51,617 nucleotides of DNA from Methylocystis sp. (GTDB lineage: Bacteria > Pseudomonadota > Alphaproteobacteria > Rhizobiales > Beijerinckiaceae): contig JAMBEQ010000022.1 of NCBI GenBank assembly GCA_024506175.1, positions 1 through 51,617 of the forward strand, given 5' to 3'. Of the stretch, positions 7,237 through 33,054 are shown piece by piece. The position numbers were made by a program, and so were the translations under genes. The first letter of the stretch is position 1. Each line of letters begins with the position of its first letter. A model generated the notes under the pieces. That model was not told the origin of the DNA. It saw nothing but the letters and a program-made list of their open reading frames with translations, and did not search any database.

Positions 7237-9696
7237 ATGGACGTTTCCTCAAAGAATGAAAACAACGCGTCCAAAGGCTTGGACGTGCTGGAACAGGCGT
7301 TGCGCCGCTCGGCGCTCGCGATCCTCTCCGAGCGTCTGCTGAGGCTCGGCGCGGCGCTTGTCACGCTGGCGCTGTTTTTCGTCGCGCTGTCCTGGCTCGG
7401 GCTGTGGCGGGCTATTCCGGTCGAAGCGCGCATGGCGGGCGTCGCGCTCTTCGGCTTTCTCGCGCTTTACCTGATCGCGCGCGAGATCGCGCGCGGTCTG
7501 CCCCGACGCAAGGCCGCCGCCGCCCGCCTGGACGCCGCCGCCGATGGCCCGATGAAGCCCGCCGCCTCGCTCGACGACACGCTCGCGCGGCAAGGCGCCG
7601 ATCCCGCCACCGCCGCCCTCTGGGCCTTGCACCGCAAACGGCTCGAAGCCGCGCTGGCCGCCACGCCCGTCACACGGCCGCGTCCGCGCCTGCCGGAGCG
7701 CGACCCCTATGCCTTGCGCGCCCTGGCGCTCGTCGCCGCCATCGCCGCCGGCTTCGTCGCGGGCGACGAGAAGGGCGCCCGGCTCGCCGCCGCCTTCGAT
7801 TGGCGGGCTGTCCATTTCCTTGGCCCTGCGCAGCGCATCGACGCCTGGTTCGATCCGCCGGCCTATACAGGGCGTCCGCCGATCGTCCTGGCGCAAGAGA
7901 GCGGCGCGGTCGAAGCGCCGGTGCATTCGACGCTGCGGCTGCGGCCGGCAGAGGCCAATGTTTCCGTCGATGGCGGGCTTGCGCCGATCCAGACGCCAGA
8001 CAAGAAGGAACGCGAATTCACGCTCGCCGGACCCGCGCAGCTCTATCTGCCGGACGGCCGCACTTTCCAGGTCGCCGCAGTTCCGGACCGCCCGCCGGCG
8101 ATCGCGCTCACGGGCAAGCCGCGCAACAATGCGCGGGGCAGCATGACGCTCTCCTATCGCGCCGAGGACGACTATGGGGTCGTCAGCGCCGAGGCCGTGT
8201 TCACCAAGCCAGGGGGCGGCCGCGCGCTTTACGAGCCGCCACGCCTGCCGCTCGCTCTGCCGGCGGGGGCCGGCGGCCTTGGCGCGGGCCAGGCGACTCT
8301 CGATCTCGCCGACAGCCCCTACGCGGGCGCCAAAGCGACCATGCGGCTCGAGGCGAAAGACGCCGCCGGCAACGAAGGGGCCTCCGACGCAATCGAGGCA
8401 ATCCTCCCGCAGCGCCGGTTTACAAAGCCGCTCGCAAGGGCCCTTGTCGAGCAGCGGCGCATTCTCGCGCTCGATCCCGAGCAACGCGCCAATGTGCGCG
8501 CGGCGCTCGAGGCGCTGTCGATCGCGCCCGAGGTTTTCGAAACGCCGTCTTCGATCTACCTCGGCTTGCGCGCCGCGCGCCGAAGCCTCGAAGGCGGACG
8601 CACCGACGATGAATTGCGGGGCGTCGCCGATATGCTCTGGGCGATGGCGCTTTCCCTCGAAGACGGCGACACGTCGCAGGCCGAACGCGATCTGCGCGCC
8701 GCCGAACAGGCGCTGCGCGAGGCCATGGCGCGCGGCGTGAGCGAGGAGGAAATCGCCAAGCGCTCGCAGGAGCTGCGCGCCGCGCTCGACAAATTCCTCG
8801 AACAGCTCGGCGCGCGCGCGCATGCGCCCGGCGAGCCCCGCGAAAGCGCTGGAAACCCCGACAGCCTTACGGCCGACGATCTGCAATCCATGCTCGACGA
8901 CATCGAAAAGGCGATGAGATCCGGCGACATGGCGGAAGCGCAACGACTCCTCGACGAATTGCAGGACGTTATGGAAAACGCCCAGACCGCCGAGGAAGGC
9001 GGGCCGCAGAACGCCGCCCGCCAGAAGCGCCAGCGCGAGATGCAGCGGGCGCTGGGCGAACTCGACCAGCTTGCCCGCGAAGAGCAGCGTCTGCGCGACG
9101 ACACTTTCCAGGGAATGAAGAACCCGTCCGACGACGACGCGGGCAAGCCGCAGCAGCGCGGCGGCAAGAAGGGTCAACCGCAGGCCGCTGACGATGCGAG
9201 CCAGGAACGCCAGCGCCAGCAGGCCTTGCGCGACAAGCTGGAACGCCAGCAAGACGCGCTCAAGGGCGATGCGGGCGAGGCCGGCCAAGAGCTCGACGAC
9301 GCCCGCAAGGCGATGAAGGAAGCGGAGGAGGCCCTTAAGTCCGGCGGAGAAGGCCGCGGCAAGGCCGTGGACGCGCAGGGCCGCGCGGTCGAAGCGCTGC
9401 GCAAGGGCGCCGACAAGCTCGCCGAGCAGATGCGCGGCGAGGGACAGGAAGGCGAAGAGGGGCAGGAGGGTCAGGGCAAGGGCCACGGCCGGGCGCGCGG
9501 GCGTTACGGGCAGGGGCGCGATCCGCTCGGACGTTCCTCCGGCGGCCAACGCGCTTCCCGCGAGAAATATGATCCGCTCGGCCTTCCGCCGGCGCAGCGC
9601 GCGCATCGCGTGCAGGAAGAGCTGCGCCGCCGCCTCGGCCAGCCCGAGCGCCCCGCGGAGGAGCTCGATTATCTACAGAGGTTGCTGCAACGGTGA
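7237..9696 (+). CDS. TIGR02302/DUF4175-type large membrane protein
   Basis: N-terminal TM helices, then RPRPRLPERDPYALRALALVA ... PAYTGRPPIVL ... PDRPPAIALTGKPR ... YRAEDDYGVVSAEAVF, with a charged Q/G/E-rich C-terminus. Confidence 0.8.
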   Translation: MDVSSKNENNASKGLDVLEQALRRSALAILSERLLRLGAALVTLALFFVALSWLGLWRAIPVEARMAGVALFGFLALYLIAREIARGLPRRKAAAARLDAAADGPMKPAASLDDTLARQGADPATAALWALHRKRLEAALAATPVTRPRPRLPERDPYALRALALVAAIAAGFVAGDEKGARLAAAFDWRAVHFLGPAQRIDAWFDPPAYTGRPPIVLAQESGAVEAPVHSTLRLRPAEANVSVDGGLAPIQTPDKKEREFTLAGPAQLYLPDGRTFQVAAVPDRPPAIALTGKPRNNARGSMTLSYRAEDDYGVVSAEAVFTKPGGGRALYEPPRLPLALPAGAGGLGAGQATLDLADSPYAGAKATMRLEAKDAAGNEGASDAIEAILPQRRFTKPLARALVEQRRILALDPEQRANVRAALEALSIAPEVFETPSSIYLGLRAARRSLEGGRTDDELRGVADMLWAMALSLEDGDTSQAERDLRAAEQALREAMARGVSEEEIAKRSQELRAALDKFLEQLGARAHAPGEPRESAGNPDSLTADDLQSMLDDIEKAMRSGDMAEAQRLLDELQDVMENAQTAEEGGPQNAARQKRQREMQRALGELDQLAREEQRLRDDTFQGMKNPSDDDAGKPQQRGGKKGQPQAADDASQERQRQQALRDKLERQQDALKGDAGEAGQELDDARKAMKEAEEALKSGGEGRGKAVDAQGRAVEALRKGADKLAEQMRGEGQEGEEGQEGQGKGHGRARGRYGQGRDPLGRSSGGQRASREKYDPLGLPPAQRAHRVQEELRRRLGQPERPAEELDYLQRLLQR

Positions 9697-25450: not shown

Positions 25451-26140
25451 TTATCTTTCGGCGGTTCCGGCCTGCGAGATCAGGAGATATCCAAGGAACC
25501 GCTGGGAATCGATCGGATCGTACCCCAGCTTCTTGCGCAGCTTCTTACGCAGCTTGCTGATGTGGCTTTCGATCACCGTCTCTTCGACTTCTTCATCGAA
25601 CAGCCCATAGACTGCGTTGAAAACCTGCGTCTTCGTCAGGCGGCGGCGCTTGTTCAGGACAAGGAGTTCGAGGACGCGCCTCTCACGGCGGGGCAGGGGA
25701 AAGGGCTCGCCGTCGATCACGGGGTCGCGGCCATCGAAAAAGACCTGGATGCGGTCGAAGGTGGCGTAATCTTGCCGGGCGTCGGCGCGCCGACGGATCG
25801 CATGAACGCGCGCAAGTATTTCCCGCACATGAATCGGCTTGCGCACGACATCGTCCACGCCGGCGCTGAACAGGCCGAGCGTTTGCTCCAGCGACAGCGC
25901 ATCATTCATCGCGATAACAGGCGCCTGCGAGTGCCGGCGGATGAGCCGCGGGAGTTCTTCCCTGTCGGGACAGTCGCCGATCAAAAACGCTTCGATTGCC
26001 TGCAAGTCTTTTTCGCGGGCCGAGTCGACCCAGTCCACGAACTGCTCAAAACCAAAACCCGTCGAGTACACGCCCTCTTGACTAAACCGACTTGTATACG
26101 CGCTCGTCACTGTTTCCCTTTCATCGACGATAATTAACAT
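25451..26140 (-). CDS. ftcR: Response regulator of the FtcR flagellar regulator family
   Basis: [71 protein letters not shown] and winged-helix [42 protein letters not shown]. Confidence 0.85.
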
Positions 26141-26356
26141 TCGGCGTCTCCCGGCGGATGGACCTGCATGTGCGCGTCGCGCGAATCAGCTCCTATACTG
26201 GGTTTAGTCGTAATCCCGCGGGCCCGCAACGTAACCTTAAGTAAGCGCGGGGATTAAACGGCGGTCCCGGGACGCTATATGCAACGCAGTTTCGCGCAAG
26301 GCCGGCCTCTTACCATGAGGTCGTCAATCTGCTCGAAACCAGGACAAGAATCGCGA

Positions 26357-27111: not shown

Positions 27112-28431
27112 ATGCCTGAGTTCGAACAGCTACTGAGTTCGGCTGAAATGTTCGGCCGCAGCGAACGCCATGTGACAATTTCCGGGGAAGTCGTGGAGGT
27201 GACGCCAACCTTCCTCAGGACTGCCGGGCTTTCGAAGTTCGTCAAGCTCGGAGATTGCGTCGCGACCGAGACCATGCGTGGCGAGATGCTGGCTCAGGTC
27301 GTGCGAATTGACCAGCATGGCGTCATCATCAAAGCGTTCGAGAACAACTGCGCTGCCGGCCTCGGTTCGAAGGTGCGTCTCGTCGGCGCGATCGAACTGT
27401 CGCCGCATGACTCCTGGCGGGGAAGGGTGCTCGACGCATTTGGCCGACCGGTCGATGGAAGAGGGCCGGTCAGAGGCGGCGAAAAACGGTATTTCCTCGA
27501 CTCACCCCCGCCCTCGGCGATGCGAAGAACGCCGATTTCCAAACCTTTGCGCACCGGCGTGCGCGTGATCGACGCATTCACGCCGCTCTGCGAGGGCCAG
27601 CGAGTCGGGGTTTTCGCGGGTTCTGGCGTCGGCAAATCGACCTTGCTCGAAATGCTGTCGCGATCGGGAGGTTTTTCCGTCGCGGTGATTTGTCTCGTCG
27701 GCGAACGAGGCCGCGAGGTGCGCGATTTCGTGGAAGCGGTGGCCTCTTTCAACCCGGGCGGCGCCGTCACCGTCGTGGCAACGGCTGACGAAAGCCCAAT
27801 GATGCGACGCATGGCGCCCCTGACGGCCACTGCGATAGCCGAGTTTTTCCGCGACGCCGGCGCGTCTGTCATCCTGATCGTCGACTCCGTGACCCGCTAT
27901 GCGCATGCGGTGCGTGAAGTGGCCTTGGCGTCAGGCGAGCCGCCGGTCGCCAATGGCTATACGCCGAGCGTCTTCGCCGATTTGCCGCGTCTTCTCGAGC
28001 GCGCAGGACCCGGCGAGGAGGGCGCGGGCGCGGTCACGGGCATCTATTCGGTTCTCGTCGACGGAGACAACCACAACGACCCGATCGCGGACTGCATTCG
28101 CGGCACGCTGGATGGGCATATCGTGCTAGAGAGAGAGATTGCCGAACAGGGACGATATCCGGCGATCAACCTGCTCAAGTCAATTTCCCGGCTAGCGGAT
28201 CGGGTGTGGTCGCCCGACGAGCGGCAGATGGTCATGGGTCTGCGCTCCATGCTATCGAAATTTGAAGAAACCCGGGATCTGCGCATGCTCGGCGGATACA
28301 ACGCGGGGTCAGACCCCGAGCTTGATCGCGCCGTCGCCGTCACGCCGCTCATCTACAACGCCTTGCGCCAAACCCCGCAGGACCCGCCGAGCGTCGCCGC
28401 GCTCGAGGAGTTGGCGCAGCGCCTAAGATAG
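27112..28431 (+). CDS. fliI: Flagellum-specific ATP synthase FliI
   Basis: Walker A GSGVGKSTLLEML, CLVGERGREVRDF, ILIVDSVTRYAHAVREVALASGEPP. Confidence 0.97.
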   Translation: MPEFEQLLSSAEMFGRSERHVTISGEVVEVTPTFLRTAGLSKFVKLGDCVATETMRGEMLAQVVRIDQHGVIIKAFENNCAAGLGSKVRLVGAIELSPHDSWRGRVLDAFGRPVDGRGPVRGGEKRYFLDSPPPSAMRRTPISKPLRTGVRVIDAFTPLCEGQRVGVFAGSGVGKSTLLEMLSRSGGFSVAVICLVGERGREVRDFVEAVASFNPGGAVTVVATADESPMMRRMAPLTATAIAEFFRDAGASVILIVDSVTRYAHAVREVALASGEPPVANGYTPSVFADLPRLLERAGPGEEGAGAVTGIYSVLVDGDNHNDPIADCIRGTLDGHIVLEREIAEQGRYPAINLLKSISRLADRVWSPDERQMVMGLRSMLSKFEETRDLRMLGGYNAGSDPELDRAVAVTPLIYNALRQTPQDPPSVAALEELAQRLR

Positions 28432-28622
28432 CCGGGCGTAGGTCGCTTTCCATTTCACGCAGCGCATCAAGCGCGCGTCCGCGTTCGAGCTCCTCGGCGC
28501 CGGCTTGCGATTCCAGGCGATTTGAAACGAATGACACACACGCCGTAAACGCGCCGTTATCCAAAGGAAAAGCTGATGATTGCGGTGTCGAGCAGGTGCG
28601 CGTACAACCTCAACATCCGCTG

Positions 28623-28762
28623 CGGACGGGAACTTAATCCCGCGGCATGACGCTGTTTCCGTTGGCCCGGTGCAACGCCGGGATGTCTCGAATGCGCAAC
28701 CGGTTTCGCCATTGTCGCGAGGCCCGCGCGTCACAGACGACAACAGTGAAAGGCGTAAGATC
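28623..28762 (+). promoter_or_regulatory. Conserved flagellin 5' leader, copy 1
   Basis: About 140 nt aligned with 29895-30033; hairpins CGGGA/TCCCG (28627-28642) and CCCGG/CCGGG (28666-28682) retained in both copies. Confidence 0.6.
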
Positions 28763-29650
28763 ATGTCGAGCATCAACACAAACCTTGCCTCGCTGACCGC
28801 TCTCCAGGCTCTCCGCAACACGCAGGCGAACCTGTCCACCGCACAGAGCCAAGTCGCCACCGGCCTCAAGGTCGGCAGCGCCCAGGACAACGCGTCGACG
28901 TGGTCGATCGCCGAGACGATGAAGTCCGACAACGCGGTTCTGACGACCGTCAGCGACTCGTTGAATGTCGGCAACCAGGCGCTCTCGGTGGCCTCGTCCG
29001 CGGTCAATCAGGCGATCACCGTGATGAACTCCATCAAGCAGGCGGTCTCGCAAGCCACCGATCCGAACGCCGACCAAACCAAGATTCTGACGAGCCTGCA
29101 GGCGCTCGGCGGGCAGCTGAAGAACATCGTCACCTCGGCGAATATGAACGGCGTCAATCTGACCGACGGTTCGCAGACGACCTTCAACCTGATCGCCTCC
29201 TACACGGACGGCAAGGGCGCGGCGGCCTCCTCGATCGGAACGATCAACCTCGGCCTGCAGACCCTCTATAAGACTGGCAGCACCACGTCGATCCTCCAGG
29301 GCGCCAAGGCCACGGGCTCCGCCTCCGCGACCGACTTCACCGCCCTCGCGGCCGGCGATCTCGCCGCCGCGACGATCGGCGTCACTTTGTCGAACGCGGA
29401 CAAGGCGATCGCCGATCTCACGACCTATGCGTCGAACATCGGCGCGACGCAGTCGACCGTTACGGGGCAGACCACCTTCCTGAAGTCGCTGCAGTCCTCG
29501 CTCACCGCCGGCGTCAGCGCCCTCGTGGACGCGGACATGAACGAGGTGTCGACCCGCCTGCAGGCTCTGCAGACGCAGCAGCAGCTCGCCGTCCAGTCGC
29601 TGTCGATCGCCAACCAGAACAGCCAGATGATCCTGAAGTTGTTCCAGTAA
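28763..29650 (+). CDS. Flagellin, copy 1
   Basis: MSSINTNLASLTALQALRNTQANLSTAQSQVATGLKV ... VQSLSIANQNSQMILKLFQ. Confidence 0.96.
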   Translation: MSSINTNLASLTALQALRNTQANLSTAQSQVATGLKVGSAQDNASTWSIAETMKSDNAVLTTVSDSLNVGNQALSVASSAVNQAITVMNSIKQAVSQATDPNADQTKILTSLQALGGQLKNIVTSANMNGVNLTDGSQTTFNLIASYTDGKGAAASSIGTINLGLQTLYKTGSTTSILQGAKATGSASATDFTALAAGDLAAATIGVTLSNADKAIADLTTYASNIGATQSTVTGQTTFLKSLQSSLTAGVSALVDADMNEVSTRLQALQTQQQLAVQSLSIANQNSQMILKLFQ

Positions 29651-29695
29651 GACCGGAATACAGGCGACGCCCCGCGCGATCGCCAACTGTTTCGA

Positions 29696-29733
29696 AAGGG
29701 TCGCGCCTTCCCGGGCGCGGCCCTTCTGGTTTT
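29696..29733 (+). terminator. Terminator downstream of flagellin copy 1
   Basis: AAGGGTCGCGCC-ttcccg-GGCGCGGCCCTT (one G-U pair) followed by ctggtttt. Confidence 0.75.
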
Positions 29734-29894
29734 GGAGAGGCAGCCTCGGTCGCATATGCCGAGCCGTAAAAATGCGAAGCGATATGCATCCTAATCGAAT
29801 TGGGTTCAGGTGGGTGCGTCCCGTAAACCCCCTGTTAATACAAACACGGTTAATTACGAAACAGTCGGCTTAACGATAAAGCTCGATTTCGCTT

Positions 29895-30033
29895 CGGACG
29901 GGATTTCAGACCCGCGGCATGAAGCCGTTTCCGTTGGCCCGGTCAACGCCGGGATGTCTCGAATGCGCAACCGGTTTCGCCGTCGTCACGAGACCTGCGC
30001 GTCACAGACAACAACAGTGAAAGACTTAAAATC
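29895..30033 (+). promoter_or_regulatory. Conserved flagellin 5' leader, copy 2
   Basis: Aligned with 28623-28762; hairpins CGGG/CCCG (29899-29914) and CCCGG/CCGGG (29938-29953). Confidence 0.6.
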
Positions 30034-30921
30034 ATGTCGAGCATCAACACAAACCTTGCCTCGCTGACCGCTCTCCAGGCTCTCCGCAACACGCAGGCGA
30101 ACCTGTCCACTGCGCAGAGCCAAGTCGCCACCGGCCTCAAGGTCGGCGCCGCACAGGACAATCCGTCGACGTGGTCGATTGCCGAGACGATGAAGTCCGA
30201 CAACTCGGTCCTGACGACCATCAGCGACTCTTTGAACGTCGGCAACCAGGTGCTCTCGGTGACCTCGAACGCGGTCAATCAGGCAATCACCGTGATGAAC
30301 GCCATCAAGCAGGCGGTCTCGCAAGCCACCGATCCGAACGCCGACCAAGCCAAGGTCCTGACGAGCCTGCAGGCGCTCGGCGGGCAGCTGAAGAACATTG
30401 TCACGTCGGCAAACATGAACGGCGTCAACCTGACCGACGGTTCGCAGGCATCCTTCAACCTGATCGCCTCCTACACGGACGGCAAGGGCGCGGCGGCCTC
30501 TTCGATCGGAACGATCAACCTCAGCCTGCAGACTCTCTATAAGACTGGCAGCACCACATCGATTCTCCAGGGCGCCAAGGCCACGGGCTCAGCCTCCGCG
30601 ACCGACTTCACCAACCTCGCGGCCGGCGATCTCGCCGCCGCGACGATCGGCGTCACTTTGTCGAACGCGGACAAGGCCATCGCGGATCTCACGACCTATG
30701 CGTCGAACATCGGCGCGATGCAGTCGACCGTGACGGGGCAGACCGCCTTTTTGAAGTCGCTGCAGTCCTCGCTCACCGCCGGCGTCAGCGCCCTCGTGGA
30801 CGCGGACATGAACGAGGTCTCGACTCGCCTGCAGGCTCTGCAGACGCAACAGCAGCTCGGCGTCCAGTCGCTGTCGATCGCCAACCAGAACAGCCAGATG
30901 ATCCTGAAGCTGTTCCAGTAA
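30034..30921 (+). CDS. Flagellin, copy 2
   Basis: 295 aa, same length as copy 1, with a small number of scattered substitutions. Confidence 0.96.
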   Translation: MSSINTNLASLTALQALRNTQANLSTAQSQVATGLKVGAAQDNPSTWSIAETMKSDNSVLTTISDSLNVGNQVLSVTSNAVNQAITVMNAIKQAVSQATDPNADQAKVLTSLQALGGQLKNIVTSANMNGVNLTDGSQASFNLIASYTDGKGAAASSIGTINLSLQTLYKTGSTTSILQGAKATGSASATDFTNLAAGDLAAATIGVTLSNADKAIADLTTYASNIGAMQSTVTGQTAFLKSLQSSLTAGVSALVDADMNEVSTRLQALQTQQQLGVQSLSIANQNSQMILKLFQ

Positions 30922-30943
30922 CACTCGGCATGTAAGGAACAAA

Positions 30944-30975
30944 GGCGGCCGCACGATTTTTTGTGCGGCCGTTTT
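30944..30975 (+). terminator. Rho-independent terminator downstream of flagellin copy 2
   Basis: CGGCCGCAC-gatttttt-GTGCGGCCG followed by TTTT. Confidence 0.9.
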
Positions 30976-31123
30976 ACTTTGTGAATTACTAAATTATTAA
31001 TTGCAAATTAACTATTACTTTCAACTGGGCAGGTTCGCGCAAGCATAGACATGAATGATCCGGCTACTGGGCCGGGGAAGCATCTGCGTCGCTCGAGCCC
31101 CGAGAGAGACTCAGAAAGCAGTC

Positions 31124-31356
31124 ATGTTGAGCATCCTGACCAATGCGTCGTTGACGGCGCCGAAAGCGCTGCGCGCGAACCGGCTATCCCTGACCGATGC
31201 GCAGCGCGAGGCCTGCACGGGAATGAAGATTTCGGACCCCTCGGATGATTCCTGCTCGACTGGCTCCAGGCGCTTCAAACGCGCCAGCGGCGCGGCGTTC
31301 GAGCGATCTGGATCGCCAATCAAAACAGCCAACCGATCATGAAGCGCTTCCAGTAA
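31124..31356 (+). pseudogene. Degenerate third flagellin: N-terminal D0 segment joined, out of frame, to the C-terminal D0 segment
   Basis: MLSILTNASLTAPKALRANRLSLTDAQREACTGMKISDPSDDS matches MSSINTNLASLTALQALRNTQANLSTAQSQVATGLKV; in another frame from 31261 WLQALQTRQRRGVRAIWIANQNSQPIMKRFQ* matches RLQALQTQQQLAVQSLSIANQNSQMILKLFQ*. Confidence 0.88.
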
Positions 31357-31401
31357 TTGAATCGAAGGCAATCCGCGGCGGGAAAATAGAAGATCGTTTC
31401 A

Positions 31402-33054
31402 ATGGACCACGTTACGCTCGTCTTGGACAATCTGAAGGGCCTGGGAAGCAAGAAGCTTACGGCTCTCGCTCTGGTGTTCGGGCTGATCGTAACCGTCGTT
31501 CTGGCAGGGACCTATTATCTGTCTCGCCCGAACGAGGAGACGCTTTATGCGGGTCTCGAGCGAGACGACCTGACGCGAATTGGTTCAGTCCTGAAAGAGT
31601 CGGGCATCGCCTTCGACGTCAACCCCGAAGGCAATGCGATTCTGGTCCCTTATGGGCAGACGGCGCGGGCCCGGATGCTTTTGGCGGAACGTGGCCTGCC
31701 TCAGAGCGCCAACACCGGCTACGAGCTCTTTGATAAGGTCGGCGCCCTTGGTTTGACCTCCTTCATGCAGGAGGTCACTCGCGTCCGGGCGATCGAAGGC
31801 GAACTTGCGCGCACCATTCAGTTGATGCGCGGCGTCAAAGCCGCCCGCGTCCATATCGTCATGCCCGACGAAGGTTCGTTCCGTCGTCCAAAACAACCAT
31901 CCTCCGCGTCGGTGGTTATTCGCACTGAGGGGCCGGACGATTCGAGCGCCGCGCAAGCTATCCGGCATCTCGTCGCCTCGGCGATGCCGGGGATGACCAT
32001 CGATCAGGTCACCGTGCTCAACACCGACGGCATGATCCTCTCGGCAACCGACGGCGATCCTTCCGAAGCCGTCCCCGGCAAGACGCTGGCGCTCGAGAAG
32101 AGCGTCGCAAAGGACATACAGGACAATATTCGGCGAACCCTCACGCCATATCTGCGTCTTCCAAATTTTCAGGTGAGCGTGCGCGCCCGGGTGAATACCG
32201 ATAGAAGGCAAATCAACGAGACGATCTACGATCCTGAGTCGAAAGTAGAACGTTCCACGCGCACGGTTAAGGAAACGGCTCAGTCGCAGAACGCGAGCAA
32301 CTCCTCGCCAACGACGGTCCAGACCAACGTCCCTCAGCAAAATCCGCAAAGCAGCGATGGAAAGCAATCCAACGACGAAAGCAGGAAAAGCGAGGAGCTG
32401 ACGAACTTCGAGGTCTCGACGAAGACAGTCACGACGGTCAGCGGCGGTTACACGATCGAGAATATCGCGATCGCGGTCTTGATCAATCGCGCAGCCCTCG
32501 CCGAGGCAGGCCGGCCGGCCCCGAGTTCGGAGATCGTCGAGCGCCAGGTGAAGGAAATCGAGCAGATCGTCGCATCGGCGGCTGGAATCAAGAGAGACCG
32601 GGGGGACGTCCTGAAGGTTTCCGCCGTCGATTTCAGCTTCAACGAACACGAGATGAGCCCGGTTGAATCACCCGGATTCCTTGAGACGTTGAGCCATTAC
32701 TTGGGCACAGTGATCAATGCGGCGACGGTGCTCGTTATCACTGCGCTTCTCGTCTTCTTCGGGCTTATGCCGGCGACTCGCGCTCTGCTTGTCGAAGCTC
32801 CTCAAGCGACCGTTGGCGTAGAAGCCCCGCCGTTATTGGGAATCGACAGCGAGCCCTCGTCAGACGGGGAAGGCTTCATACCTCAAATGAACGCGCCAAC
32901 GCTGGCGTTGAACTCGGACCTCGACGCCTTCCCGGGGATGATGGGCCTCGGGCGTGTGTCAGCGCGCCAGAAACTGGAGCAGTTGATAGAAGTAGATGAA
33001 ATGCAGGCGGCCTCCGTGCTCAAGCGGTGGATGCGATCGGATGAAGCGCAATGA
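31402..33054 (+). CDS. fliF: Flagellar M-ring protein FliF
   Basis: LYAGLERDDLTRIGSVLKESGIAFDVNPEGNAILVP, ELARTIQLMRGVKAARVHIVMPDEGSF, two TM segments. Confidence 0.96.
   Translation: MDHVTLVLDNLKGLGSKKLTALALVFGLIVTVVLAGTYYLSRPNEETLYAGLERDDLTRIGSVLKESGIAFDVNPEGNAILVPYGQTARARMLLAERGLPQSANTGYELFDKVGALGLTSFMQEVTRVRAIEGELARTIQLMRGVKAARVHIVMPDEGSFRRPKQPSSASVVIRTEGPDDSSAAQAIRHLVASAMPGMTIDQVTVLNTDGMILSATDGDPSEAVPGKTLALEKSVAKDIQDNIRRTLTPYLRLPNFQVSVRARVNTDRRQINETIYDPESKVERSTRTVKETAQSQNASNSSPTTVQTNVPQQNPQSSDGKQSNDESRKSEELTNFEVSTKTVTTVSGGYTIENIAIAVLINRAALAEAGRPAPSSEIVERQVKEIEQIVASAAGIKRDRGDVLKVSAVDFSFNEHEMSPVESPGFLETLSHYLGTVINAATVLVITALLVFFGLMPATRALLVEAPQATVGVEAPPLLGIDSEPSSDGEGFIPQMNAPTLALNSDLDAFPGMMGLGRVSARQKLEQLIEVDEMQAASVLKRWMRSDEAQ

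Follow-up and report, generated by a model that had tools for sequence, protein, structure and literature searches.

CtrA is known to activate fliF in the fla2 system of Rhodobacter sphaeroides (PMC6180460), and a flagellar motif, Motif 3, has been described in Methylosinus sporium 5 (PMC12403871). We infer that this motif is YTCGCRCAAG. In these systems, as at the locus described here, fliF is preceded by TTAA-N7-TTAA and by a flagellar promoter element. The present locus differs in having a flagellin or its remnant interposed between that element and fliF. It belongs to a 51,617-nucleotide contig of Methylocystis sp., the whole of which is referred to below as the window. The best overall explanation, which we consider very probable, is that the remnant is a decayed orthologue of a flagellin gene, p, that was separately lost in a related genome (G002), and that it has been kept as the leader of fliF; promoter use and a p–fliF transcription unit are the predicted components of this explanation.

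A decayed flagellin gene upstream of fliF

The features of the locus are listed in Table 1. A first-pass annotation of this DNA had placed a vestigial flagellin at 31124–31356, with about 40 N-terminal codons behind an ATG, a flagellin C-terminus in another frame and more than 200 internal codons missing, and these particulars held up. The codons from the ATG read MLSILTNASLTAPKALRANRLSLTDAQREACTGMKISDPSDDS; those behind the junction, shifted by +2, read LQALQTRQRRGVRAIWIANQNSQPIMKRFQ and run into a stop at 31354–31356. As anticipated by that annotation, alignment to flagellins gave significant similarity at both ends. The fla2 DNA is 76% identical to the 3′ part over 103 bp (E = 8e-16). The N- and C-terminal parts score 78 and 95 against fla2, and 100 and 102 against the orthologue of a relative (G043), all above the maximum of 51 reached in 5000 codon and 5000 base shuffles.

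Table 1. Features of the flagellin–fliF region, in window coordinates
Feature	Position	Strand	Basis or remark
fla1, intact flagellin	28763..29650	+	94% identical to fla2
fla2, intact flagellin	30034..30921	+	Pfam Flagellin_N and Flagellin_C above cut-off
Terminator-like palindromic hairpin after fla2, 9-bp stem	30946..30971	.	on + strand followed by TTTTACTTTG
CtrA-type full site, TTAA-N7-TTAA	30997..31011	+	position relative to flagellin kept in G002, G042, G043
Flagellar promoter-like element, TTCGCGCAAG	31034..31043	+	kept in G002, G042, G043, allowing CTCGCACAAG
Remnant of flagellin 5′ end, 43 codons	31124..31252	+	similarity to flagellins
72-codon frame-shifted open frame from old start	31124..31342	+	length and product unconserved
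Deletion junction, frame changes	31253..31263	+	read from alignment; exact breakpoint ambiguous
Remnant of flagellin 3′ end, 30 codons and stop	31264..31356	+	similarity to flagellins
fliF, MS-ring protein	31402..33054	+	NCBIfam TIGR00206 above cut-off; start 45 nt after remnant

Relative to the intact orthologue, the net loss is 658 nt (891 minus 233), or about 219 codons together with a frameshift, and the N-terminal part also lacks one in-frame codon. The Pfam flagellin match of the N-terminal part falls below the cut-off, the C-terminal part has no Pfam match, and no single frame carries PF00669 and PF00700 above cut-off, as a functional flagellin would. With flagellin similarity at both ends, a large deletion with a frameshift, and an intact orthologue occupying this site in two relatives (G042 and G043), the remnant is a real pseudogene, i.e., a flagellin gene that has lost its middle and changed its frame and is predicted to have lost its product. 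It is ordinary in kind. Among the titles listed, a literature search gave no match for an internally deleted flagellin pseudogene beside fliF. Copies of the sequence TCGAC lie close to either end of the intact gene (in G042 within GCCTCGACATGG and GTTTCGACTCGACTCC), and the junction in the window lies in or beside TCGAC, which makes a slip between these short repeats a plausible, though unproven, origin of the deletion.

The first-pass annotation had further suggested that the remnant may act as a recombination partner, which would mean that it was kept as a donor for fla1 and fla2. Both terminal segments are retained, and the 3′ end has the identity to fla2 given above, but the longest identical run shared with fla1 or fla2 is 9 bp. 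An identity of this length is far under the usual requirement of homologous recombination. Moreover, fla1 and fla2 are better partners for each other, with shared runs of 77 bp, and the donor role is therefore highly implausible. These two genes also have similar leaders, and the flagellin pair of G002 likewise cluster together; we read the likeness in each species as recent duplication or gene conversion.

Orthology with a fliF-proximal flagellin

A search of related genomes revealed flagellins upstream of fliF in motile members of the genus Methylocystis. The intact third flagellin that the first-pass annotation had predicted for relatives is present in G042 and G043, where it ends 45–46 nt before fliF, compared with 45 nt for the remnant. 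This gene, here called p, encodes 296 aa with both Pfam flagellin domains. G042 and G043 are closely related, so intact p has in effect been seen in one lineage.

The p genes share the position, leader, tail and diagnostic residues of the remnant and differ from it in being intact, whereas the window keeps only 73 codons in two frames. They are the best flagellin matches of both ends, with identities of 24/43 (N-terminal) and 22/30 (C-terminal) against 20 and 19–20 for fla1 and fla2. The residues DAQRE, LQALQTRQ and IMK are common to the remnant and the p genes and are missing from fla1 and fla2. In trees, the remnant groups with G042_p and G043_p with support of 98% (ends only) or 97% (full length), and the window and G042 are 62% identical in the leader, 70% in the retained ends and 53% in the tail. 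Given the shared place, best matches, marker residues, tree position, and homologous leader and tail, the comparison identifies the remnant as the orthologue of p, a distinct flagellin directly before fliF. The ends of fla1 and fla2 (PF00669/PF00700) are homologous to those of the remnant, but these genes represent another flagellin lineage. Their leaders have no similarity to that of the remnant, and on this ground a plain tandem copy of fla1 or fla2, leader included, was ruled out.

The first-pass annotation had regarded the remnant as an older array member that decayed. Decay of a flagellin is correct, but the gene did not come from the fla1/fla2 array; its divergence from these two genes is due to separate orthology and faster change after inactivation, not to great age. 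The G042 and G043 p genes look constrained (pN/pS 0.16), and the long branch of the remnant in the ends-only tree (0.47 versus 0.06 for its intact sisters) points to relaxed constraint. Between the remnant and G042_p, however, pN/pS is 0.36, within the 0.21–0.38 of diverged intact pairs, because most of the divergence predates the decay. The first flagellin of G042 and G043 (L072 9881–10792 and L073 10022–10933) groups with p (95%) and not nearest to fla1 and fla2 despite the closeness of the species, which suggests flagellin replacement or conversion in that clade.

Independent decay and the number of losses

The genome of the window is divided into 266 contigs and contains near-identical flagellins, a setting in which two reads or repeats might be misjoined and leave an apparent gap. 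However, the remnant is diverged from fla1 and fla2 and matches the G042/G043 orthologue, and G002, an independent genome of 4 contigs, has a comparable wreck in the same place; an assembly artefact is thus extremely improbable. The G002 copy (L032 8913–9031) is the same gene with both ends kept and the frame disrupted. At 119 nt it is shorter than the remnant in the window, and it carries a 16-nt deletion and a larger one whose breakpoints are unlike those of the window, which marks its decay as independent. The species order (window,(G002,(G042,G043))) is supported at 100% by concatenated flagellar neighbour proteins and at 99% by rpoB. Intact p is therefore nested among dead copies, so that at least two losses are needed unless the gene was restored in G042/G043, and with the separate decay in G002, p appears to have died at least twice.

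A single death in the common ancestor, followed by homologous replacement that gave G042 and G043 an intact copy, would require one decay, and the larger G002 deletion could hide an earlier lesion. Nevertheless, the lesions of the window and G002 differ, and the identity between G002 and G042 is even across the leader (86%), the retained parts (88%) and the tail (89%), as fits vertical descent. We consider such a restoration unlikely.

The two dead copies also bear on whether the ATG at 31124 still begins a short functional protein or a leader peptide. The decayed genomes both retain the ATG, followed by an open frame that ends 59–66 nt before fliF. However, the frames from this ATG comprise 72 codons in the window and 32 in G002, with different shifts and little in common, and an open run as long as that behind the junction arises by chance in 41% of shuffles. 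The same ATG starts the intact flagellin in G042 and G043. A short protein is accordingly improbable, and the conserved small ORF that the first-pass annotation had named as the opposing outcome was not found at this locus.

Where p is dead, in the window and G002, two fla1-type genes are present; G042 and G043 carry a single flagellin besides p. Each genome has thus kept two intact flagellins, although few genomes are involved. In G002 (L032 2564–8715) the pair of flagellins has an inverted orientation with respect to fliI and fliF and lies beside ORFs that by eye resemble an IS66-type element. A C-terminal flagellin stub of 17 codons (8654–8715) is found there in the original orientation, and its nearest relative is the first flagellin of G042 (45/50 nt).

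Promoter-like elements and a probable long fliF leader

A TTAA-N7-TTAA box upstream of the transcription unit, as expected of a CtrA-type fliF promoter, is present before the remnant, and CtrA binding is predicted. Shuffles predict 0.03 perfect boxes per window. Across the genome the box is hardly enriched (18 versus 13 in the control), and YTCGCRCAAG alone was found 3 times against 1.5 expected per window; the case for the two elements as a module rests on conserved position. Throughout the four-genome clade (window, G002, G042 and G043) the pair, TTAA-N7-TTAA plus YTCGCRCAAG, precedes p or what is left of it. Nine other Methylocystis genomes (G022, G009, G003, G010, G020, G041, G044, G046 and G047) have an exact or near-exact pair between the last flagellin and fliF, with the CGCRCAAG core about 48–62 nt from the fliF start codon. 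Among the Methylosinus-like genomes and other members of the family that were examined, a CGCRCAAG-type core alone occurs 58–73 nt before fliF, or 113–174 nt before it in two. No second core was found between the remnant start and fliF in the window. With the module upstream of the remnant, the flagellin or its remains would separate fliF from its probable promoter in the four-genome clade. Read-through from fla2 is made less likely by the terminator-like hairpin, which a scan assigned to the - strand; its + strand tail was read from the sequence.

Other signals were also considered. A sigma-54 reading of the leader was rejected by inspection (GG-N10-GC is present in the window and absent in G042), a sigma-70 scan of the + strand before the remnant gave nothing convincing, and an Rfam search of 28400–31500 returned no family.

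In the favoured scenario, p would have headed the fliF transcription unit in this clade, placed between the fliF promoter and fliF. Once p became redundant, its interior could be lost freely, in one or more deletions that removed about 219 codons and changed the frame, whereas deletions reaching the upstream promoter module or fliF downstream would have been selected against. The internally deleted p would then do no more than give the fliF mRNA a long 5′ leader. The remnant is probably such a leader now, and its flanks probably persist because the wreck sits between the promoter-like elements and fliF. There is a small chance of a more active role, in which a flagellin, as a rule a late product, came to stand first behind the early fliF promoter and its wreck serves as a translated leader with an open frame that sustains transcription into fliF or tunes fliF expression.

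Under the passive leader model, the fliF leader in this group is probably unusually long, which matters for annotation and for the reading of promoter maps. The locus also suggests that when a gene stands between a promoter and an important gene further downstream, this position restricts which parts of its remains can be deleted. Flagellin birth and death can be seen here in stages, as close relatives have copies that are intact, half-gone or nearly gone. The clade-specific placement of a flagellin in the probable fliF leader, and its later repeated loss, are a modest but testable addition.

G156 (L106) has a CGCRCAAG core before its last flagellin, about 1133 nt before fliF, and again 63 nt before fliF, a possible intermediate for a flagellin coming under a fliF-type promoter. 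In the window, TTCGCGCAAG recurs at 26291–26300, 66 nt ahead of ATG 26357, the likely flgF start, which lies 78 nt downstream of the ORF's first ATG; the element precedes flgF in G002 too. The flagellar cluster also encodes an OmpR/PhoB-type response regulator, at 25451–26140 on the - strand and divergent from flgF; it matches no NCBIfam model at cut-off, and judging from its location and type it may be an FtcR/Rem-like regulator of flagella.
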